From positions 4,548,501 through 4,612,500 of the forward strand of contig NZ_CP020700.1 in assembly GCF_003932715.1 (NCBI RefSeq): 64,000 nt of DNA, given 5' to 3'. The stretch's first letter is position 1; the number at the start of each line of letters is the position of its first letter. The position numbers and the translations under genes are program-made. Shown here piece by piece: positions 3,628 to 61,209 of the stretch. This DNA is from Streptomyces tsukubensis (GTDB taxonomy: Bacteria; Actinomycetota; Actinomycetes; Streptomycetales; Streptomycetaceae). Below the pieces are notes generated by a model that saw nothing but the letters and a program-made list of their open reading frames with translations, had not been told where the DNA came from and made no database searches.

Positions 3628-3750
3628 CCGGCGCGGGTGACCCTGCGGGTGGCCGGGGTGACGTGCGCGGGTCGCTTCCCCGCGGCCGGATGTGACGCCC
3701 CGCGCCCAGCCGGGCCTATGCGGTCCGACGTCCCCCCGGCCACTCACAGC

Positions 3751-3976
3751 CCGCGGCCGCATCGCGACCTTCCCCAGCCGGGGATCGGTGCTCTTCCGAA
3801 GGACCTGGAGGGGAAGCACTCAGGGGCGCGAGGAACTGCGCGACAAGCCACCCACGGCCCGCGGCCGCATCGCGACCTTCCCCAGCCGGGGATCGGTGCC
3901 CTACGGAGGACCTGGAGGAAAGTACCTAGGGGCGCGGGGAACTGCGCGAACACCCACCGGCGGCCCGCGGCCGCAT
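3751..3976 (+). repeat. Two full tandem intergenic repeat units of about 107 bp plus a partial third
   Basis: The 544-base gap between dacB and the next gene contains no convincing gene. Units start at 3751, 3859 and 3965 (periods 108 and 106). Each begins CCGCGGCCGCATC, carries a CCCCAGCCGGGGATCGG hairpin-forming core, and ends with the GGGGCGCG(A/G)GGAACTGCGCGA box that I recall as common between Streptomyces genes. The first two units are close to identical over the first 45 bases. Function is unknown; a transcript-end or mRNA-stability role is possible. Confidence 0.75.
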
Positions 3977-4171
3977 CACTACAGCACCACGCCGGGCGCT
4001 CGGCGCCGCACAGGCCTCCCGCACCCCGCAACGCGCCGCCCCCCGGGCCGGAGGCCCAACGCGCGGGCGCCCCGCCCACCGCCCCCCGCCCCGGGGGACC
4101 GGGGGACCCCGGGCCCGAGGCCCTGGAACAACCTGCGACCTCCCCGGAGGGGACCACGTACCGTTGACGCC

Positions 4172-30844: not shown

Positions 30845-32281
30845 ATGCCCCGTGGACGCCACCGCCATTCCCCTCCCCTGCACAGGCTGCTGCCGCCGTC
30901 GGCGGTGGCCGGAGCGTCGGTGCTGAGTGCCGCCGGCGCATGGCTGCTCACCGATCCGGTGCTGCTGCGGTCCTTGGCCGCGGTGGCCGCCGCGGCCGCC
31001 GTCAGCGGCGCGGTGCTGATGCGCCGCTGGGACCGGTCCGCGGGCCGCCGGGTCGCTGAGGTCACCCGGGGCCGGGCCAACGACGCCTGGCAGCACGAGG
31101 AGCGGGTGGCGGAGCTGGAGTCCGAGGTCGACGAGGCGCGCGAGCTGCGGGCCAAGCTGGAGACCAAGCTCCGGGCCAAGCGGGTCGAGCTGGCCAAGCT
31201 CCGCAACGAGCACGCCGAGCTGCTCCGTCGCTATGCCGCCGCGGAGACCGGCCGGGCGAGCGCCCTGGAAGGCCGCCGCAAGCTCGCGGTGGAGGCCACG
31301 GCGCCCCAGGACCCCAAGGAGCTTGCGGTGCCGGGCGCGAGCCCCACCGCCGCAACGTATCTGCGCGCTGCGAAGGCGCTGGAGGCCTTGACCCGTAACG
31401 CCGAGGCCCAGGGGCGGCGCGCGGCCGGGGCGACGGCCCGCCCGGGCGGAAGGCCCGCGCTGGAGCCGGTGGCCGCGCCGGGGACGAAAGCCCGGCCCGG
31501 AGGCACCGGAGGCACCGGAGGCACCGGCGGCAACCCGGCGGGCCCCGGGTCGGGCAAGAAGGCCGCGGCGAGTGCGCCGAAGGAGGCCAACACCCCCGCG
31601 GGCGCCCCGAAGGCCCCGGCAGGCAGCAGCGACTCCACAGCGGACGCCGCTCCGAGCACCACAGCGAACACCGCCGCTCCGGACGCAGGAGCCCCGGCCG
31701 ACGGTGCGGCCGAGGCAGCCGCGGGCCCGGTTCCCGCCCCGCGGCCCGACGGCACCCCGGACGGCGACGGCGGCGGCAGCCGTACCCCCGCGAAGCCGGA
31801 CGCCCCCGCCGCCCCGCAGACCGCTCCCCGTACCGCCGCGGCCACCGGCCCCCGTACGGCACCGGCACCGGCAACCGCGCCCGCGCTTCCGGCCGGTCCC
31901 GCCGCCCGCGCCCTCCCCGCCGCCCCGGCACCGGCCGCCGGGCCCGGCGCGATCGTTCCGTACGGCCCCCGCCGCGTCCCCGGTACGACCGTGCGCAGGC
32001 CCGAGGGCGGATTCGACTTCTTCGGCGCGAACACCGGCGCCCCGGCCCCCGGACAGCGCCCCGACGACACCGCGGCCGACGACGGAGAGGCGGCGATCGC
32101 CGCCGCCCAGCGGGCGGACCTCGCGGACGTCGTCGGTGACGAGGCCCTCGCCGAGCACCGGCAGCACACCGGCCGCCCGCACCCGGCCCCCGCTCCGGCG
32201 GGCGAGGTCATCGACCTCACCGCGCACGACGAGACCGAGAAGCTGGACATGTCCGGCCTGCGGAACGCCCTCAGCTCGTAA
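30845..32281 (+). CDS. Membrane protein with coiled coil and long disordered tail
   Basis: A 478-residue protein from ATG 30845. Two hydrophobic stretches lie near residues 20-36 and 42-60 (SLAAVAAAAAVSGAVLM). A charged coiled coil of about 75 residues follows (HEERVAELESEVDEARELRAKLETKLRAKR...). Residues 190-400 are Ala/Pro/Gly/Thr-rich and probably disordered, and the tail EGGFDFFGANTG and EVIDLTAHDETEKLDMSGLRNALS is conserved-looking. This resembles Streptomyces membrane scaffold-type proteins, but I recognise no named domain. Its transcript ends at a strong hairpin shared with nuoD. Confidence 0.8.
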   Translation: MPRGRHRHSPPLHRLLPPSAVAGASVLSAAGAWLLTDPVLLRSLAAVAAAAAVSGAVLMRRWDRSAGRRVAEVTRGRANDAWQHEERVAELESEVDEARELRAKLETKLRAKRVELAKLRNEHAELLRRYAAAETGRASALEGRRKLAVEATAPQDPKELAVPGASPTAATYLRAAKALEALTRNAEAQGRRAAGATARPGGRPALEPVAAPGTKARPGGTGGTGGTGGNPAGPGSGKKAAASAPKEANTPAGAPKAPAGSSDSTADAAPSTTANTAAPDAGAPADGAAEAAAGPVPAPRPDGTPDGDGGGSRTPAKPDAPAAPQTAPRTAAATGPRTAPAPATAPALPAGPAARALPAAPAPAAGPGAIVPYGPRRVPGTTVRRPEGGFDFFGANTGAPAPGQRPDDTAADDGEAAIAAAQRADLADVVGDEALAEHRQHTGRPHPAPAPAGEVIDLTAHDETEKLDMSGLRNALSS

Positions 32282-49641: not shown

Positions 49642-49840
49642 TCCGGCTCCGATCACCCGTCCGCGTGACCCGCCGAGGCATCACCGAGACATCGGCGGGG
49701 CATCAGCGAAGCGATCCCTATGTCCGAATCGCGCACGTTTCCCGCCCTCTCCGCCTTCTGAACCTGTCCCAAGGGTTTGAGTTTTTCAGAGAAAAGCGGT
49801 TTCCTTTCCGCGTACTGCATTTTCGATGAAAGGAAATCCG

Positions 49841-50173
49841 GTGGCACAGAAGGTTCAGGTCCTTCTTGTCGATGACATCGACGGCGGCGAAGCGGACGAG
49901 ACCGTGACGTTCGCGCTGGACGGCAAGACGTACGAGATCGACCTCACCACCGCCAATGCGGACAAGCTCCGCTCGCTGCTGGAGCCGTACGCCAAGAACG
50001 GCCGCCGCACCGGCGGTCGCGCTTCCACGGGCCGCAGCAAGGGCCGGGCCGCGAGCGACAACAAGAACACCGCGGAAGTCCGTGCCTGGGCCAAGGCGAA
50101 CGGTTACGAGGTCAACGACCGCGGGCGCGTCCCCGCCACGGTCCGCGAGGCCTACGAGAAGGCCAACGGCTGA
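49841..50173 (+). CDS. lsr2: Lsr2-type nucleoid-associated protein
   Basis: A 110-residue DNA-bridging protein, start GTG 49841 with AAAGGAAA before it. The N-terminal dimerisation domain is VAQKVQVLLVDDIDGGEADETVTFALDGKTYEIDL, and the C-terminal AT-hook-like domain has the RGR motif in AKANGYEVNDRGRVPATVREAYEKANG. Lsr2 silences AT-rich, often foreign, genes in Streptomyces and mycobacteria. The upstream gap is moderately AT-rich and holds a GCGG...CCGC hairpin. Confidence 0.95.
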   Translation: MAQKVQVLLVDDIDGGEADETVTFALDGKTYEIDLTTANADKLRSLLEPYAKNGRRTGGRASTGRSKGRAASDNKNTAEVRAWAKANGYEVNDRGRVPATVREAYEKANG

Positions 50174-51401: not shown

Positions 51402-53927
<2,526 letters not shown>

Positions 53928-53969
53928 CAGCACCGCCGCGGGGACAGCCCCTCTGCGGCGTTGACGATT

Positions 53970-54010
53970 GAGGCCTTGGCCCGTACCGACGAGGTACGGG
54001 CCAAGGCCTC
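53970..54010. terminator. Strong hairpin after clpC
   Basis: An 18-bp perfect stem, GAGGCCTTGGCCCGTACC with its complement, closes a five-base loop. It sits between clpC and the convergent NACHT operon and can end both transcripts. Confidence 0.85.
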
Positions 54011-54028
54011 GGTCATGTCACGGGCGGT

Positions 54029-56386
54029 TCAGGCTCCGGCGGCGGAACTGCCGCCCGGGGGTCTTTCGCGGGCCAGACGGAGGGCCAGCCGTTCGGCGTA
54101 GACGCGGGCGGCGGGATCGTCGATGCGGCGCACCAGACGGGCGGTGGGGGCGAGGGCCTCGGCGGGCAGCTCCTCGGGCTCGGGCAGCAGGGTCAGTACG
54201 GACAGGCCGAGGCCGGACAGGACGTCCGCCATGGTCGTGCTGAGCGGCGGCAGGTACGCGTACAGAGTCCGCTCCACGGTCTCGCGGACATCGGGTTCGA
54301 GTGTGCTCGCGTGCTGAATGCAGAGTGCAGCCAGGACGGAGAGCCGTGCCTTGCCGTTCAGGTCCCGGGCGCTGTCCGCGGTGGCGAGGAGCCCCAGGGC
54401 CAGCCGGGCCAACTGCAGGCGGCTGCACTGACCGGCTGCCAGCAGGACGACATCGGACCACTGCTCGTCCTCGGCCCGGATGAACAGCTCCCCCAGGTAA
54501 TCCCCTTCGACGACTTCCTTCGCCGTAAGGAAGGACTGGAAGGCGCGGTGCAGGAAGCGGAGGGAGCCGTCCGACTGTTCTGTGAGGAGGCCGCTGCGAT
54601 TGAGGAGGTACCTCAGCAACCGGTCGGCGGGGCCCTGCGAAAGGAGGGCGGGGGCGGCGATGAGGGCGCTTTCGAGTTGGACGAGGGCCTGTGCCCGGCT
54701 GATCTCGCTCCGGTCGTTGCGCATCAGCCAGACGGCCAGCTGCTGAAGCAGGTGGCAGTGTTCCTCGATGGAGAGAGCGACGCCTTCGGACGGTCTGGAG
54801 AGGTGCACCACCCCCCAGGAGTCCCCGTCCCCCAGCAGCATCCTCAGGGCTTGGCCGTAGAGCACCCAGGGCTGCTCGGGGGGATCACCGCCGTGCTGCA
54901 GATGGAGAGCACAGACGACGCCGCAGAGCAGAGGGGTGCGGGCGAAGTCTCGCAGGGTGCGGTCGTGGGCGAGCCGCCGGAGCAGCCCGGCTTCCAGGAG
55001 GGACGGTTCCGAACCGGATCTGCCACAGGCGCGCGCCGCTGCGAACCAGGCGCTGACGAACCCCTCGATATCGGAGTCGCCCAACGGCAGGAGGAGCCCC
55101 TCGTCGAAATCATCGGAGGCCAGCCAGTCCTGGACCACGGCCGACGGCCGTACGGTGACGACGCAGCGGGTCTCCGGGAACTCCCGCAGCAGCTCGCCCA
55201 GCCAGTGGCGGGCGGCCTCCCGCTCCCTCGCCGGTACCTCGTCCACCCCGTCGACCAGGAGCAGCGCCCGGCCTTCTGACAGAACGCGCAGTGCCCAGCC
55301 TTCGGGGGCATCTGGTCCGACTATCCGTGTCACTTTGGGAAGCCGCTCGGGCCCCGGCAGGCCCGGTTCCTTTCCGGACACGCTGCACAGCGGAATCAGG
55401 AAGGGGACCAAGCCGTTGAGTTCCCTCAACTCGGAGGGGAAGCTACGGGTGACTGCCCGGGCCGCGAGCCACATCAGCAAGGTGGTCTTTCCGGAGCCCG
55501 CTTCACCGCGCAGCAGTACCCGGTGGCGACCCCCGAGCAAGGTGTCGACCCTCTCGACATCACTCGGATCGGTCGTCGGGGCCCGGCCCTCGAATGCGGC
55601 CGCCAGGCTCAGATACGCAGTGTCGAGATCCCACTGGGACTCCAGTACGTCGAGCGCGTCCAGACCGAAGACCATGGTCTTGCGGTAGGCGTGGACGAGG
55701 GCCGCTCCGTACTCCTCCTCGTACCGGATGTCGTCGGGGCGGCCGTGGACGACCGTCTCCAGGGACGACGGAATCCAGGGCGCCAGCGCGCACAGGCCCG
55801 GGTGCTCGGCCAGGCGCCGGGTGGGGAGGCAGTGGGCGCGGATCCGGCCGCCGTTGCCGGAGAGCCGCTGGACCAGGCCGAGAAGGGTGTCCCCGGCGAA
55901 GAGGGGTGCGCCGATCAGACTGGTGACGGAGTGGGGGTCGGTGGGGTCGGCGGGGTCGGCGGGGTCGTCCTCGGGAGGGGTGTCGAAGTCGAAGAGCAGT
56001 GTCCCGGGGTCGGTGACCGGCGGGACGGTGCCGGTGAACCAGCGGGCCTTGAACCCGCCCCGGGCGGAACCGCGTCCCACGGGGTGGCCGATGATCCGGC
56101 CGGGAACGGGCCGGTCGGTGGCGAGGGCACCGAGCCGGGGCTGGAATCCGAGCCGCCCGTTGCCCGCGAGGAGGACCGCCGCGTCGAGCCGGGAATCGGA
56201 CCAGATCACCGGATGGTCGCCCCGGCCGACGCTGGTCGCGGGGTTGATGACGCGGGCGCTCTGCCGGGCACCGACGACCCGGGCACAGGTCAGTACGAGA
56301 TGGGGCGAGATGCGCACCCCGGTGCCCTGGACCTCGCCCGCGACCATCACCACCAGGTCCTCGTGCCCGGGGCGGCCGGGGGTCAC
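54029..56386 (-). CDS. NACHT NTPase with degenerate trypsin-like N-terminal domain
   Basis: A 785-residue STAND-type protein from GTG 56386, overlapping the Trypco2 stop (GTGA). Residues 12-200 align with the trypsin-like domain of the paralogue at 56754-60065, but LTCARVV has Arg36 where the catalytic His should be and SLIGAPLF has Ile158 where Ser should be; only Asp68 of the triad remains. A shared linker (MVFGLDALDVLESQWDLDTAYLSL) leads to the NACHT domain with Walker A GEAGSGKTT (294-302) and Walker B ALLLVDGVDEVP. The C-terminal 250 residues are helical, without the leucine-rich repeat of the paralogue. A DDPADPADPTDP repeat lies at about 140-151. The arm probably binds but does not cut. 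Confidence 0.87.
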   Translation of the reverse strand: MTPGRPGHEDLVVMVAGEVQGTGVRISPHLVLTCARVVGARQSARVINPATSVGRGDHPVIWSDSRLDAAVLLAGNGRLGFQPRLGALATDRPVPGRIIGHPVGRGSARGGFKARWFTGTVPPVTDPGTLLFDFDTPPEDDPADPADPTDPHSVTSLIGAPLFAGDTLLGLVQRLSGNGGRIRAHCLPTRRLAEHPGLCALAPWIPSSLETVVHGRPDDIRYEEEYGAALVHAYRKTMVFGLDALDVLESQWDLDTAYLSLAAAFEGRAPTTDPSDVERVDTLLGGRHRVLLRGEAGSGKTTLLMWLAARAVTRSFPSELRELNGLVPFLIPLCSVSGKEPGLPGPERLPKVTRIVGPDAPEGWALRVLSEGRALLLVDGVDEVPAREREAARHWLGELLREFPETRCVVTVRPSAVVQDWLASDDFDEGLLLPLGDSDIEGFVSAWFAAARACGRSGSEPSLLEAGLLRRLAHDRTLRDFARTPLLCGVVCALHLQHGGDPPEQPWVLYGQALRMLLGDGDSWGVVHLSRPSEGVALSIEEHCHLLQQLAVWLMRNDRSEISRAQALVQLESALIAAPALLSQGPADRLLRYLLNRSGLLTEQSDGSLRFLHRAFQSFLTAKEVVEGDYLGELFIRAEDEQWSDVVLLAAGQCSRLQLARLALGLLATADSARDLNGKARLSVLAALCIQHASTLEPDVRETVERTLYAYLPPLSTTMADVLSGLGLSVLTLLPEPEELPAEALAPTARLVRRIDDPAARVYAERLALRLARERPPGGSSAAGA

Positions 56387-56751
56387 GGCAGATCCGGGCC
56401 GGGGTGGGTGCGGCCGAAGTCGCTGGTGTCGCCCAGGTCGTCGTGGCCGACCAGCCAGGCGCCGCCGGTCCGGGGGTCCTGCGGTCTGAGGGTGAGGGCC
56501 ACGCGGTGGGTGCCGGTGCTGCCGCGGGTGTGGTCGGCGCCCGCGTCCACGACCCAGGCCCTCACCCTGCCCCCGGCGGTGGTGTCGCGGCGCAGTTCGA
56601 CGGTGAACTCCAGCTCGACGTCGCCGACCTGGAACTGGACGGCGGAGCCGTTGCCGCGGGCGGCGGCGGTGATGAGCTGGGCCCGGACGGCGTCGACGGC
56701 GTCGGCGAGGTCGATGAGGGGGGAGGGGAGGGTGGGGTCGGTGGAGGACAT
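56383..56751 (-). CDS. Trypco2-family protein (trypsin-co-occurring domain 2)
   Basis: A 122-residue protein, ATG 56751, two bases after the upstream NACHT gene stop. It reads IDLADAVDAVRAQLITAAARGNGSAVQFQVGDVELEFTVELRR, then HRVALTLRPQDP, which matches the beta-rich Trypco2 domain that comparative genomics has placed beside trypsin-like peptidases in actinobacterial conflict systems. It probably acts as a partner or inhibitor of the peptidase modules. It is coupled to the downstream NACHT gene by a GTGA overlap. Confidence 0.85.
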   Translation of the reverse strand: MSSTDPTLPSPLIDLADAVDAVRAQLITAAARGNGSAVQFQVGDVELEFTVELRRDTTAGGRVRAWVVDAGADHTRGSTGTHRVALTLRPQDPRTGGAWLVGHDDLGDTSDFGRTHPGPDLP

Positions 56752-56753
56752 GG

Positions 56754-59700
56754 TCAGCCTTCCGGTGGTATGGGCTTGAGCAGGGGGAACGTGAGCCGGC
56801 TGCCGAAGTGTTCATGACCGGTCAGTTGGAGTGGATTGGTGCAGAAAATCTTGATGCGCAGTTGATCCGCAGCGCTGTGCAGCGGGGTGAGGTCGATTTC
56901 GTATGGGGGCGCTGCGGTGAGGTCGAATTGAAGGGCTTCCAACTCGGGGAAGGCGCGGGCAATGATGTCCAGCTCGGTGGCGGAGGGGAAGTGGTGGAAC
57001 CCGAGGCGTTTGATCCAGGAGGAGAGGACGCCAGCGCTGTCGATCTCCACTTGCCGGTTCAACCGGAGGTCGCGCAGGGATCGGATCGGGTTCGCCGTCC
57101 CGATCAACGAGGAGAGCCGGGCCGGTCCCTCCAGGGACAACATCTGAGGCATCCAGCTTTCCAGGGCGCGATAGGGAATTTCCTGGTTGCCGAGCACATG
57201 GAGCTGATCGACCATCGGCCGGGGGCCGGGCAGACTCAGCGCTTGGATATCAGTGGTGAAGGAGGAGAGCCGCTGGTTCGACAGTGCGCTCAACGAGGTC
57301 AACGCCGGGCAGTCCTCCAGTTCGAGGTGGAGGACGGACCGACGTTCGGCTACGGCCCGGAGATCGGTGAGGACGGTGTTCCCCCGGAGGCCGACTCTGA
57401 ACAGCCCGTTCTCCGGTAGTCCGGAGTGCAGCTCGTCCGATGAGTGGTCTCCGTACACCGTGACGATGGTGATCGACCCCAGGCCTTTGAGCAGGTCGAG
57501 ATGCTCTCGTGTGGTGACGGGCACATTCACGTTGTGCAGAGAGACGCGGGACAGCACCTCGTGGGCGTACCGTCGCGCGGGGAAGCCGGACCAGGCATCG
57601 GCGAGGGCCCAGACATGTCCTGGACGTTCGGCCTCGGTGAACTTGCCCAGGCGGGGGATCGCGGATTCGTCGCCCACGAAGGCATACACGCGGATGACGC
57701 GCCGGTCGGCGTAATGGTCGCCGGAAGGGCCGGGTAGCAGCGGCAGGATGTAGTCCCCCAACTCGGCCAGGAGCCGGACCTCCCGCTCGTTCCGGGGCGG
57801 CATCACGCTCCGTACCGCCCCCTCCGCCCTCGCCCTCGTCCCGGCGTCCAGAAAGACGGCGTTGGCTGCGCACTGGCCCGCGAGGATCAGCAGGGCACGA
57901 TCTTCCGGGCCGCCGTCCGGGGCGACCTTGTCGATCAGGCCGTTGACGAGGCGGCCCACCCGGCGGTCCAGATGGCCGACCGAGAGCAGGATGACGTCCC
58001 GCCACAGCTCGTCCCCGGCGCGGATCACGATCTCCTCGACGCTGTCGGTCTCGGCCAGCTCCTTCGCCGCCAGATAGTCCTGGAAGGTGCGGTGGATGAA
58101 CTGGATCGCGTCGTCGGCGCGCTGCTGGAGCAGTCCGCTGCGGTTGATCAGGTGGGTCAGGATCCGGCGGGCGTCGGCCTGCTCCCTCACCTGGGGCATA
58201 TAGCCCGTGGCCTGGTCGATCCGCTGGACCGCCTCGTCGGGGGTGAACTGGGTCCGGCCGCAGCGCACCAGCCAGACGGCGATGTGCTGGAGCAGCAGCC
58301 GGTGCTCGTCGACGCCGATGTTCAGGCCCTCGGGGGCGTCGATGCCCCGGTCCCGGTCGCGTTTGCCCAGCAGCATGTCGAGGGTGGCCCGGTACAGCTC
58401 CCAGCGGGTGTGCGGGAGCCGGCCGCGGCGTTTGCGGTGCAGCGCGCAGATGACGGCGCAGAGCAGGGGCGTACGGGCGAGATCGCGCAGGACGCGGTTG
58501 CCGGTGAACTCGCGGGTGAGCTGCTGCCGCAGTTCGTCCAGGCGCCGGGCTTCGGCGGCGGCGCGGCCCTGGTCGCGTCCGGCGTATTCAAGGTGGGCGG
58601 CGCGGTGCCAGGCGGCGACGAAGGCGGTGATGTCGTCGTCGCTCATCGGCAGGAGCAGCAGATCGGTGAAGCCCTCGCCGGTCAGCCAGTCCCTCTCGAC
58701 GGCGCCCGGGCGGACGGTGGCCAGGCAGCGGGTGTCGGGGTAGCGGGCCAGGAGCCGGGTCAGCCAGGCGCGGGCCCGGTCGCGGTCGTCCTGGGGAAGC
58801 TCGTCGACCCCGTCGACCAGGAGGAAGCCGCGGCCGGATTCGAGGATGCGTTCCGCCCAGCCGTCCGGGGCGCGGCCGACGGCGAGCCCGGCGACGTGCC
58901 CCAGCTCGTCGGGAGTGGGGAAGGCAACCTTCTGGTCCGGGAGCCTGCGCAGGCTGCGCATCGGGACGACGAGGGGGACCAGGCCGTTCAGCTCGTCCAG
59001 CTCGCCGGGGAGGGTGCCGCAGGCGGCGTGGGCTGCCAGCCACCACACCAGGGTGGTCTTGCCCGCCCCGGCCTCCCCGCGCAGCAGGATGCGGTTGCTG
59101 CGGCCGAGTAACTGCTCCACCCGGCGTGGGCGGTCGTCGAGGGAAGGGCCGGACCGGACGCCCACGCCCACGACATCGTCAAAGTCGCGGAGGGTGACGG
59201 CGTCGGGCTCGTCCGGCAACGGTTCGCGCATCCCGGCCGACAGCTTCCCGGGCCCGCGCCGCAGCTCCTCGTCCCGCCCCGTCGCCTCCAGGCTCAGATA
59301 CGCGGTGTCCAGGTCCCAGCTCGACTCGCTGACGCCCAGCTCGTCGATGCCGAAGATCTCCGTCTTGCCGTACTGGGCCTTCACCGCGTCCGCGTACCGC
59401 TCCTCGAAGGGGGCGTCCGCGGGGTCGAAGCCGGACATCCGCTCCAGCCGGGGGGTGGCCGGGAGGCTGCCGAAGGCCCAGCTCGCCAGGGCTTCGATGG
59501 GGACGGCTTCGAGCTGCTGGCCGTGGACCCCGCTGACCTTCGCGACGATGCCCAGCAGGACGGGGCCCGCGAGGACGGGGGCGCCGGAGAGCCCGGCGAG
59601 GGGGGAGCGGCCGTCGGGGGACGGCGGGCCCGGGGTGTGGTCCAGCCAGAGGGTGAGGGCGCCCCGGGCCTGTCCGGCGGCGGGCAGGACGGTCCCCGTG

Positions 59701-60065
59701 TACTGGCCGAAGTCGAGCTTGTTGCCGCCGTAGCGCTGATGGCCGGGGAAGCCGGTGGTCTGGATGTGGTGCAGGGGATCGTCCCTGGTCAGAGCGGCGA
59801 TACGGAGGCGGCCGAGGCGATCGGCGGAGACGATGTCCTCGCCCGCGCGCAGCAGGACCGCATCCCGGCCCGGCCAGACCTTCACCACGTCGCAGGGGAA
59901 GGGCCGGCTGCTGGTCAGATGCAGCACGCTCGGCCCGCCGCGCCGGCCGTTCAGGACATGTGCGCAGGTCAGCACGTGTCTGGGGGTGAGAAGGACGCCG
60001 GTGCCCTGCTGACTGCCGAGGACGGCGACCACTCGCATGGAAGGGCCGTTCCGCACGCTTTCCAC
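56754..60065 (-). CDS. NACHT NTPase with intact trypsin-like peptidase and leucine-rich C-terminus
   Basis: An 1103-residue protein from GTG 60065; ATG 60038 (MRVVAVLGSQQGTG) is an alternative. The N-terminal trypsin-like domain has a complete triad: His36 in LTCAHVL, Asp68 in PGRDAVLL, and Ser160 in GLSGAPVL. A conserved linker (EIFGIDELGVSESSWDLDTAYLSL) is followed by a NACHT domain, Walker A GEAGAGKTT (330-338) and Walker B GFLLVDGVDEL (413-423). The helical middle (IQFIHRTFQDYLAAKEL) is typical of NACHT proteins. Beyond about residue 850 are leucine-rich-repeat-like strands (VLHLELEDCPALTSLSAL). STAND proteins of this build sense a ligand, oligomerise, and release an effector, here the protease. 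It is the first gene of the operon. Confidence 0.9.
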   Translation of the reverse strand: MESVRNGPSMRVVAVLGSQQGTGVLLTPRHVLTCAHVLNGRRGGPSVLHLTSSRPFPCDVVKVWPGRDAVLLRAGEDIVSADRLGRLRIAALTRDDPLHHIQTTGFPGHQRYGGNKLDFGQYTGTVLPAAGQARGALTLWLDHTPGPPSPDGRSPLAGLSGAPVLAGPVLLGIVAKVSGVHGQQLEAVPIEALASWAFGSLPATPRLERMSGFDPADAPFEERYADAVKAQYGKTEIFGIDELGVSESSWDLDTAYLSLEATGRDEELRRGPGKLSAGMREPLPDEPDAVTLRDFDDVVGVGVRSGPSLDDRPRRVEQLLGRSNRILLRGEAGAGKTTLVWWLAAHAACGTLPGELDELNGLVPLVVPMRSLRRLPDQKVAFPTPDELGHVAGLAVGRAPDGWAERILESGRGFLLVDGVDELPQDDRDRARAWLTRLLARYPDTRCLATVRPGAVERDWLTGEGFTDLLLLPMSDDDITAFVAAWHRAAHLEYAGRDQGRAAAEARRLDELRQQLTREFTGNRVLRDLARTPLLCAVICALHRKRRGRLPHTRWELYRATLDMLLGKRDRDRGIDAPEGLNIGVDEHRLLLQHIAVWLVRCGRTQFTPDEAVQRIDQATGYMPQVREQADARRILTHLINRSGLLQQRADDAIQFIHRTFQDYLAAKELAETDSVEEIVIRAGDELWRDVILLSVGHLDRRVGRLVNGLIDKVAPDGGPEDRALLILAGQCAANAVFLDAGTRARAEGAVRSVMPPRNEREVRLLAELGDYILPLLPGPSGDHYADRRVIRVYAFVGDESAIPRLGKFTEAERPGHVWALADAWSGFPARRYAHEVLSRVSLHNVNVPVTTREHLDLLKGLGSITIVTVYGDHSSDELHSGLPENGLFRVGLRGNTVLTDLRAVAERRSVLHLELEDCPALTSLSALSNQRLSSFTTDIQALSLPGPRPMVDQLHVLGNQEIPYRALESWMPQMLSLEGPARLSSLIGTANPIRSLRDLRLNRQVEIDSAGVLSSWIKRLGFHHFPSATELDIIARAFPELEALQFDLTAAPPYEIDLTPLHSAADQLRIKIFCTNPLQLTGHEHFGSRLTFPLLKPIPPEG

Positions 60066-60531
60066 CCCCGTTTACGCCCCCGCTTTCCCCTCCGACATTA
60101 GTGGCGGGGGCCACAATGGCGCCGCCGAATCCGTGACAAGGCACACAGGCCGTTTCGGGCCTACTAGCCGTTTTAGGAGTGCGGTCCGGGTGGGCCCGGG
60201 GAGCCGGGGGCGGTGCGGGGCCCGGGGCGGGGCCGGTTTCGCGGGTACGGGCGCCGGGGCCCGGTTCCGGGGTGCGGCGGGTGCCCGGGGGGACCGGGCG
60301 TACATGCGGTTAAACCCCATTTCAGGGCGGAAATTCCGGGCCTTTTGATCATGCCTGAAGTAAATGATCGAAAGGTGTCAATGGGGTGAATCACCACGTC
60401 GCCGCTACGACGGAATGTCGTAGTTGGGGGGTTTGAGGTGAAGTGCCGGGGTCGGTTACCAAGGGATGGCGACAACGCACCCCCGGCGCAATTCCGCGTC
60501 GGGTCACTTTCTGCCCGGAGGCATTTCTCTT
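60066..60531. other. Divergent region between the NACHT operon and the M23 peptidase gene
   Basis: A 466-base stretch. 60180-60300 is extremely GC-rich without a gene. 60303-60440 is less GC-rich and contains GATCAT-N11-ATGATC (60347-60369) and a perfect hairpin CTACGAC-GGAAT-GTCGTAG (60405-60423), so the M23 promoter and leader probably lie here. I looked for the c-di-AMP (ydaO) riboswitch found before some Streptomyces wall hydrolases and do not see its core. Confidence 0.5.
60405..60423 (+). promoter_or_regulatory. Perfect 7-bp inverted repeat in the M23 peptidase leader
   Basis: CTACGAC and GTCGTAG flank GGAAT, about 110 bases before the start codon. It may be an operator or an mRNA hairpin; no known motif is matched. 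Confidence 0.4.
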
Positions 60532-61209
60532 ATGACGCGCGTCACTTCCCGATTCCCCCGCCCGGCGTTTCTCCGCACCCGCGCCGGCATCCTGGTCGCA
60601 GGCCTGGGAGCAACCGCCGTGCTCGGAACGGGCGCCGCGTTTGCCGTAGAGGCCACCGGCTCCCCGTCCGCCGCCCCCGTCAAGGCCGCCGAGAAGGCCC
60701 CTGCGGCCGCCAAGGCCGCCGCGCCGGTCAAGGCCGTCCCGCAGGCCGCCCCCAAGGCTGCTCCCCAGGCCGCCCCGAAGGCCGCCGCCCCGGCCTGGGT
60801 GAAGCCCCTCGGCTCGTACACGCTGAGCGCCACCTACGGCAAGGCCGGCGGCATGTGGGCCAGCAACCACTCCGGCCAGGACTTCGCCGTCCCGACCGGC
60901 ACCCCGGTCGTCTCCATCGGCGCCGGTACCGTCGTGAAGGCCGGCCCGAACGGCGCCGGTGACGGTCCCGCCTACGGCAATGCCGTCGTCGTCAAGCACA
61001 ACAACGGCATGTACTCGCAGTACGCCCACCTCTCCACGGTGAACGTCTCCGCGGGCCAGACCGTCAAGGCCGGTCAGCTGATCGCCAAGTCCGGCAACAC
61101 CGGAAACTCCAGCGGTCCGCACCTGCACATGGAGATCCGTACGACCCCGAACTACGGCAGCTCCGTCGACCCGGTCGGCTTCCTGCGCTCCGTCGGCGTC
61201 AGCATCTGA
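60532..61209 (+). CDS. Secreted M23 (LytM-type) peptidoglycan endopeptidase
   Basis: A 225-residue protein from ATG 60532 with GGAGG 10 bases upstream. A signal peptide (LRTRAGILVAGLGATAVLG) ends near AFA-V39. An Ala/Lys/Pro repeat linker (residues 46-87) is followed by the M23 domain with zinc ligands His113 and Asp117 (NHSGQDFA), His166 in QYAHLS, and H197-x-H199 in SGPHLHMEI. The enzyme cuts cross-bridges of peptidoglycan outside the cell. Confidence 0.93.
   Translation: MTRVTSRFPRPAFLRTRAGILVAGLGATAVLGTGAAFAVEATGSPSAAPVKAAEKAPAAAKAAAPVKAVPQAAPKAAPQAAPKAAAPAWVKPLGSYTLSATYGKAGGMWASNHSGQDFAVPTGTPVVSIGAGTVVKAGPNGAGDGPAYGNAVVVKHNNGMYSQYAHLSTVNVSAGQTVKAGQLIAKSGNTGNSSGPHLHMEIRTTPNYGSSVDPVGFLRSVGVSI

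Follow-up and report, generated by a model that had tools for sequence, protein, structure and literature searches.

In Streptomyces tsukubensis, the interval between clpC and a gene for a Peptidase_M23 protein carries an operon of three genes on the minus strand, here called A, Trypco2 and B. It lies in a stretch of 64,000 nt (contig NZ_CP020700.1, positions 4,548,501 to 4,612,500), hereafter the window. A and B are paralogues with an N-terminal trypsin-like region and a central NACHT domain; in A the catalytic triad His-Asp-Ser is complete, in B it is lost. We tentatively propose, with a probability that falls a little short of even, that the operon is one allele at an exchangeable locus for a receptor similar to NOD-like receptors (NLRs), consisting of an active protease receptor A, Trypco2, and B as a maintained, non-catalytic regulatory NACHT subunit. 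A more specific model is possible rather than probable: an NLR pair in which A is active and senses and B is a gating pseudoprotease, at a single clpC-M23 site whose state alternates across Streptomyces between trypsin-NACHT, NNH1-NACHT and empty.

Domain architecture of A and B

A preliminary description made from the sequence of the window had listed the three genes with their coordinates, a spacing of 2 nt from A to Trypco2, an overlap of Trypco2 with B at GTGA, and motifs common to both large proteins. All of this was confirmed (Table 1). Aligned over 801 positions, A and B show 38% identity, and both contain the linker motif WDLDTAYLSL. The small protein encoded between them matches the Trypco2 family PF19631 with an E value of 2.8e-27 (95.2 bits, curated cut-off 24.2) and is the sole match found in the 8.02 Mb genome (28 of 28 candidates scored).

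A trypsin-like and a NACHT domain had been described for both large proteins. The NACHT domain is present in both (75.4 bits in A and 76.6 bits in B, cut-off 26.7); a trypsin-like domain above the cut-off and a complete triad were recovered in A only. With the Pfam model Trypsin_2 (cut-off 27.6), A scores 31.5 bits, and its triad H36, D68 and S160 is complete, so that it looks like a working trypsin-like protease. B remains below the cut-off with 23.2 bits and has R36, D68 and I158 at the triad positions. Since a triad-bearing gene located at the position of B in S. inusitatus is also below the cut-off (24.7 bits), the Trypsin_2 score of B alone is uninformative on activity.

The leucine-rich sensor of the preliminary description fits A only, by indirect evidence, and B ends before this region. 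In A searched alone, Pfam revealed no leucine-rich repeat (LRR), and the count of LRR motifs is weak (three, compared to a mean of 0.74 in shuffled sequences, with 64 of 2000 shuffles as high). Our assignment is therefore based on a profile of 64 family members, which matches LRR structures at profile positions of about 840-1010, the best match being a ‘Rab family protein’ (8.9e-24); internalin A was matched with 7e-21. With the LRR region defined by this family profile, A has the predicted tripartite layout of an NLR-like protein, namely an N-terminal effector, a STAND centre and a C-terminal repeat sensor, as had been supposed. The related idea that one protein senses and the other signals was not upheld as formulated, since the long protein A holds both the sensor and the intact protease and the short protein B neither of them. 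Phage-borne homologues of A were not found at an E value of 1e-10.

Loss of the catalytic triad in the trypsin-NACHT family

How exceptional B is can be seen from 113 non-redundant trypsin-NACHT proteins, including A and B. The His-Asp-Ser triad is present in 107 of them, among them A, and B has Arg-Asp-Ile. The remaining five are three genes that are frame-broken as read and encode the His motif in another frame (L050, L121 and L267), one interrupted by a stop codon (L067), and one in which the Ser region is deleted (L251). Thus, B is the sole full-length frame with substituted triad residues. The Walker residues K/T/D/D are intact in 111 of the 113 proteins, the other two being fragments. 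The absence of the LRR region, which leaves B without a sensor, is not in itself a sign of decay, because five members with an intact triad (L061, L112, L245, L248 and L249; frames of 776-903 amino acids) also have a tail of at most 25 residues.

The deletion of the catalytic-serine region was found in a trypsin-NACHT gene of S. palmae (L251:8968-11676), which is located behind an NNH1-type NACHT gene and a Trypco2 gene, and represents a second route to a dead protease. Protease loss was counted in 2 of 13 proteins with an upstream NACHT partner and in 0 of 95 without (Fisher p 0.013), in a post hoc comparison which ignores relatedness and in which L207 and L219 were wrongly counted as partnerless; we do not rely on this association.

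Trypco2 and trypsin-NACHT travel as a pair

For the analysis of gene linkage, A was left out, resulting in 112 non-redundant trypsin-NACHTs; this set and that used for co-divergence were picked by similarity to A or B and include related species. Trypco2 is the next upstream gene in 97 of the 112 cases, and 82 of the 97 pairs within 300 nt, the pair in the window included, show the 4-nt overlap between Trypco2 and NACHT gene. A second upstream NACHT gene was flagged in only 14 of the 112 (10 NNH1-NACHTs and four A-type trypsin-NACHTs); L207 and L219 also have one, which was not flagged owing to over-long frames. NNH1 (PF22733) was present in all seven non-trypsin NACHTs scanned. The fixed trio of the preliminary description is therefore not supported: most trypsin-NACHT genes occur without a second NACHT gene, and what stays together is Trypco2 and trypsin-NACHT.

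The two partners also diverge together. At 72 loci, the Trypco2 distances track those of the protease, linker, NACHT and post-NACHT regions (r =.83-.86), and the partial correlations given clpC are.58-.67 (protease.58, NACHT.67). The C-terminus varies more than any other part (mean distance.69, compared to.30 for NACHT); its partial r is.34 and its raw r.65. The raw correlations were reached by none of 500 permutations.

Three other loci with an A-type gene, in S. inusitatus, S. albipurpureus (G187) and genome G094, have the order A, S13 peptidase, Trypco2, B with one Trypco2 gene per locus; the S13 gene is absent from the operon in the window. A Trypco2 and trypsin-NACHT pair was also detected on a 68-kb plasmid of Streptomyces jietaisiensis (L269, NZ_CP108340.1), with no second NACHT gene in the stretch shown. 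Taken together, the gene neighbourhoods suggest that the unit which travels is the pair of Trypco2 and trypsin-NACHT, mostly without a second NACHT, and that it usually resides between clpC and M23.

Turnover at the clpC-M23 interval

To see the locus independently of receptor similarity, we located clpC in the first 80 genomes of the genus. It was found in 79, its flank was in hand for 75 (G037, G047, G050 and G078 were left out), and 70 of these reach an M23 match. Around the interval, the clpC gene is in convergent and the M23 gene in divergent orientation. In 36 of the 70 genomes the interval harbours a NACHT gene: 20 have an NNH1-type NACHT alone (two of them in G064), 12 a trypsin-NACHT with Trypco2 (frame-broken in G057), two an NNH1-type NACHT with an S13 gene, one an NNH1-type NACHT with trypsin-NACHT and Trypco2, and one an NNH1-type NACHT with Trypco2. 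Accordingly, a second NACHT is present at one of the 13 trypsin-NACHT loci. Of the other 34 intervals, 31 had no match to any profile used, two contain fragments and one an S13 gene only. An NNH1-type NACHT also adjoins clpC in four of the five genomes whose flank reached no M23 match.

The flanking two-component proteins were used for a tree of the 63 genomes that have both of these genes, with mixed loci treated as one state and fragments scored as none. On this tree, the three locus states need 20 changes, compared to a mean of 27.3 with shuffled labels. The turnover is thus high but not random, and speaks against a housekeeping role. The clpC-M23 interval resembles neither a housekeeping locus nor the site of a fixed trio; it looks like a site at which receptors are exchanged and lost.

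Additional genes and gene pairs were observed in this interval. A gene for an S13 D-Ala-D-Ala carboxypeptidase-like protein recurs (L067:6658-8325, L189:12307-13953, L190:6069-7697, L116:8860-10527, L192:6936-8558, L129, L130 and L131); besides the three loci in which it separates A and Trypco2, it is found with other NACHTs in some cases and without NACHT in G030 (L129). Tandem pairs of NNH1-type NACHTs without Trypco2, another form of paired receptors, occur at L069-L072 and L263.

The recurrent M23 neighbourhood would fit a developmental or cell-wall regulator, and so would the S13 gene, which is present at the locus in the three other A-type cases and in further ones. The NACHT proteins near M23, and sometimes S13, would then set the timing of lysis or of wall remodelling; Caulobacter uses a related CARD-NLR-like system for its programmed lysis (PMC13236601). 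We consider such a role quite improbable, since 34 of the 70 genomes have no NACHT or a fragment only, the three states are exchangeable with about 20 changes, and the pair also resides on the S. jietaisiensis plasmid, where the names clpC and M23 do not appear among the 13 annotated features shown.

Is B maintained or decaying?

The proposed regulatory role of B presupposes that B is maintained. Alternatively, B may be dying: A and Trypco2 would be functional and would have replaced an older pair of Trypco2 and B, and B would have lost its catalytic site without having acquired a stop codon yet. This alternative has to be taken seriously, even if we regard it as doubtful.

B contains neither stop codons nor frameshifts. 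A crude simulation of neutral change, with a divergence equal to that between B and its positional counterpart in S. inusitatus, predicts a mean of 13.4 stops, and none of 1000 runs was free of them. All ATPase motifs of B are kept, and so are 18 of 18 conserved columns in the linker, 69 of 78 in the NACHT domain and 69 of 89 in the post-NACHT region. Although the protease domain shares no more than 34-38% identity with the four relatives compared, it retains 26 of 37 conserved columns. The contrast in GC content between codon positions is preserved (.753/.510/.865 for positions 1/2/3), and, in comparison to the S. inusitatus gene, change is highest at the third codon position in the NACHT domain (.29/.28/.45) and in the post-NACHT region (.37/.35/.51). 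The neighbouring Trypco2 keeps 30 of 34 conserved positions. These data suggest that B was coding through most of its divergence; a recent decay is also compatible with them.

Several observations weigh against a maintained regulatory B. Its protease (.45/.37/.47) and linker (.35/.39/.40) changed nearly equally at the three codon positions. The branch of B is long (1.86, median 0.16), and among 50 scored proteins B keeps the fewest conserved columns in three of four regions (protease, NACHT and post-NACHT), which makes a general relaxation of B a live alternative. The Trypco2 of the window is long-branched as well (1.48, median 0.14). In G094, the B-position gene is disrupted by a deletion and by a stop codon in frame; frame-broken trypsin-NACHT genes exist elsewhere at the locus (L050, L121, L068 and L267), possibly due to errors in draft assemblies. 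Further, in S. inusitatus and S. albipurpureus the triad is kept by the gene that stands at the position of B behind an A-type gene, showing that inactivity is not required by an A/B pair. The nearest relative of the window on the flanking-gene tree, G030, has no NACHT but only the S13 gene at the locus; it carries a Trypco2 and trypsin-NACHT pair elsewhere (L065). Finally, the operon has no recognisable substrate and no recognisable gene for a nuclease or another killing effector.

The origin of B was also considered. No relative above about 50% identity was found, and a single-protein scan of genome contigs was empty; the best other matches have 46-47% identity over most of the protein and 49% over part of it (150 and 324 genomes, largely shared). 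A recent tandem duplication of A is not favoured, since grouping of B with the A lineage was rejected (approximately unbiased test, p 0.03). A grouping of B with its positional counterparts from S. inusitatus and G187 withstood the test (p 0.14), though the free tree places B elsewhere; because of the long branch of B, this test of topology is weak.

That much of the fold framework was kept while catalysis was lost could also point to a decoy: inhibitors that phages encode against the active protease would be lured by the dead one, and the tampering would be reported by the NACHT domain. We consider this unlikely, since the phage inhibitor is only assumed and B has no separate sensor. For inactive trypsins in related conflict systems, PMC7159879 proposes instead a function as dominant-negative regulators or peptide binders.

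Proposed function of the operon

Returning to the proposed receptor locus with a regulatory B, it is tempting to speculate on how it might work. By analogy to bacterial NACHT proteins, AVAST and LypABC, the LRR end of A would sense a trigger. ATP-driven assembly through the NACHT domains would then cluster the N-terminal proteases, and proteolysis would start a response, most likely abortive death, possibly as a defence against phages. Trypco2 may be a partner of the protease-NACHT core and act as adaptor, regulator or substrate. B occupies the canonical Trypco2-linked position, with A as an intact, distant paralogue upstream of it; as its most parsimonious active function, B could co-assemble with A as a non-catalytic subunit, which would raise the activation threshold or serve as a scaffold. 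The logic would be similar to that of FLIP, the pseudoenzyme that acts on caspase-8 in animal cell death, and to paired plant receptors, in which an active twin is under pseudoenzyme-type regulation. If this is true, the control of an active enzyme by its pseudoenzyme twin would be shared by prokaryotic immunity, with a bacterial NLR as an example. Moreover, a single interval that swaps NLR-like receptors between Streptomyces species would offer a natural panel of alleles for finding the ligands that are sensed.

Genomic context

The features of the locus are summarized in Table 1. Both neighbours named in the preliminary description, clpC and M23, were verified by Pfam. Where B and clpC converge, their 3’ ends are separated by a hairpin, which is probably a terminator common to both genes. 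No sigma-70-like promoters were detected in 53800-60700, and the window has no Rfam match at gathering score. Upstream of clpC, an Lsr2 gene with dimerization and DNA-binding domains is located at 49826-50173, and many of the loci compared have an Lsr2 homologue on the same side of clpC. For positions 1-49700 the analysis covered repeats, tRNA, Rfam and composition. Elsewhere in the window, a 106-bp unit is repeated 2.2 times at 3740-3977 (87% matches), and 31001-32000 shows 80% GC and an AT skew of 0.36, both being the maximum of the 1-kb table of the window.

Table 1. Features of the receptor locus and its borders (window positions).
Feature	Position	Strand	Remarks
clpC	51402..53927	+	Pfam Clp_N, AAA_2, UVR, ClpB_D2-small; left border of receptor locus
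Hairpin between convergent 3’ ends of B and clpC	53965..54012	.	18-pair stem; -41.5 kcal/mol; z -10.5
Gene B	54029..56386	-	Inactive trypsin-like domain and NACHT, without LRR region; 785 amino acids; GTG start; 4-nt overlap with Trypco2 stop
B NACHT domain, residues 289-450	55037..55522	-	Walker motifs intact
B pseudoprotease domain, residues 10-200	55787..56359	-	Arg36 (codon 56279-56281) for His; Ile158 (codon 55913-55915) for Ser
B 9-bp tandem repeat, DPADPADPTDP, residues 141-151	55934..55967	-	Directly before dead Ser site
Trypco2 gene	56383..56751	-	122 amino acids; PF19631
Gene A	56754..60065	-	Trypsin-like peptidase, NACHT and C-terminal LRR-like region; 1103 amino acids; GTG start
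A leucine-rich putative sensor, residues about 841-1090	56796..57545	-	Borders approximate; family profile against LRR structures
A NACHT domain, residues 325-489	58599..59093	-	Walker A GEAGAGKTT and Walker B LLVDGVDEL intact
A protease domain, residues 10-200	59466..60038	-	His36 codon 59958-59960, Asp68 59862-59864, Ser160 59586-59588
Peptidase_M23 gene	60466..61209	+	Pfam; right border of receptor locus

Comparison with known systems

The association of Trypco2 with trypsin-like domains (PMC7159879) and NACHT defences are already known. A clpC-M23 receptor site or a pair of an active and a pseudoprotease NACHT was not found described in the open-access literature, and this absence is weak evidence because the search covered open-access papers only, with subscription papers and outside preprints beyond its scope. 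In the modules of trypsin-like proteins with Trypco1 or Trypco2 described by Kaur et al. 2020 (PMC7159879), the context is that of MoxR-vWA-VMAP ternary systems; here the partner is a NACHT-LRR protein, the Trypco2 overlap is usually 4 nt, and the proteases are two paralogues of which one is inactive.

The bNACHT anti-phage proteins (PMC12169576) have the same order of N-terminal effector, central NACHT and C-terminal sensor. Compared to bNACHT25, the effector is a protease here and a nuclease there, and our system comprises two paralogues and Trypco2. The NCBIfam model EruA, a NACHT anti-phage protein, reaches only 21.4 bits with A, far below its cut-off of 1000. AVAST (Avs) and Lamassu have a trypsin-like protease and a gated pro-nuclease, and the AVAST trypsin proteases activate a nuclease after sensing (PMC12799240); PADLOC LmuA matches the protease region of A (residues 13-191) with an E value of 1.2e-05. 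Here, in contrast, no nuclease gene was recognised and the ATPase is of the NACHT type; the Avs profiles did not assign any of the proteins to this family, the best match being Avs2 on B with an E value of 0.089. A serine-protease fold was likewise repurposed in MamO, there for metal binding in magnetite formation, an unrelated pathway (PMC4794232).

The CARD-NLR system LypABC has the same tripartite set of trypsin-like peptidases and an NLR-like ATPase with one degenerate-domain subunit, and lysis in Caulobacter needs the peptidase serines and the Walker motifs of LypB (PMC13236601). In LypABC, the ATPase of LypA is without Walker residues and the peptidases are located on separate proteins, one of which has a CARD (PMC13236601), whereas in the S. 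tsukubensis operon it is a protease domain that has degenerated, next to intact motifs of the ATPase.

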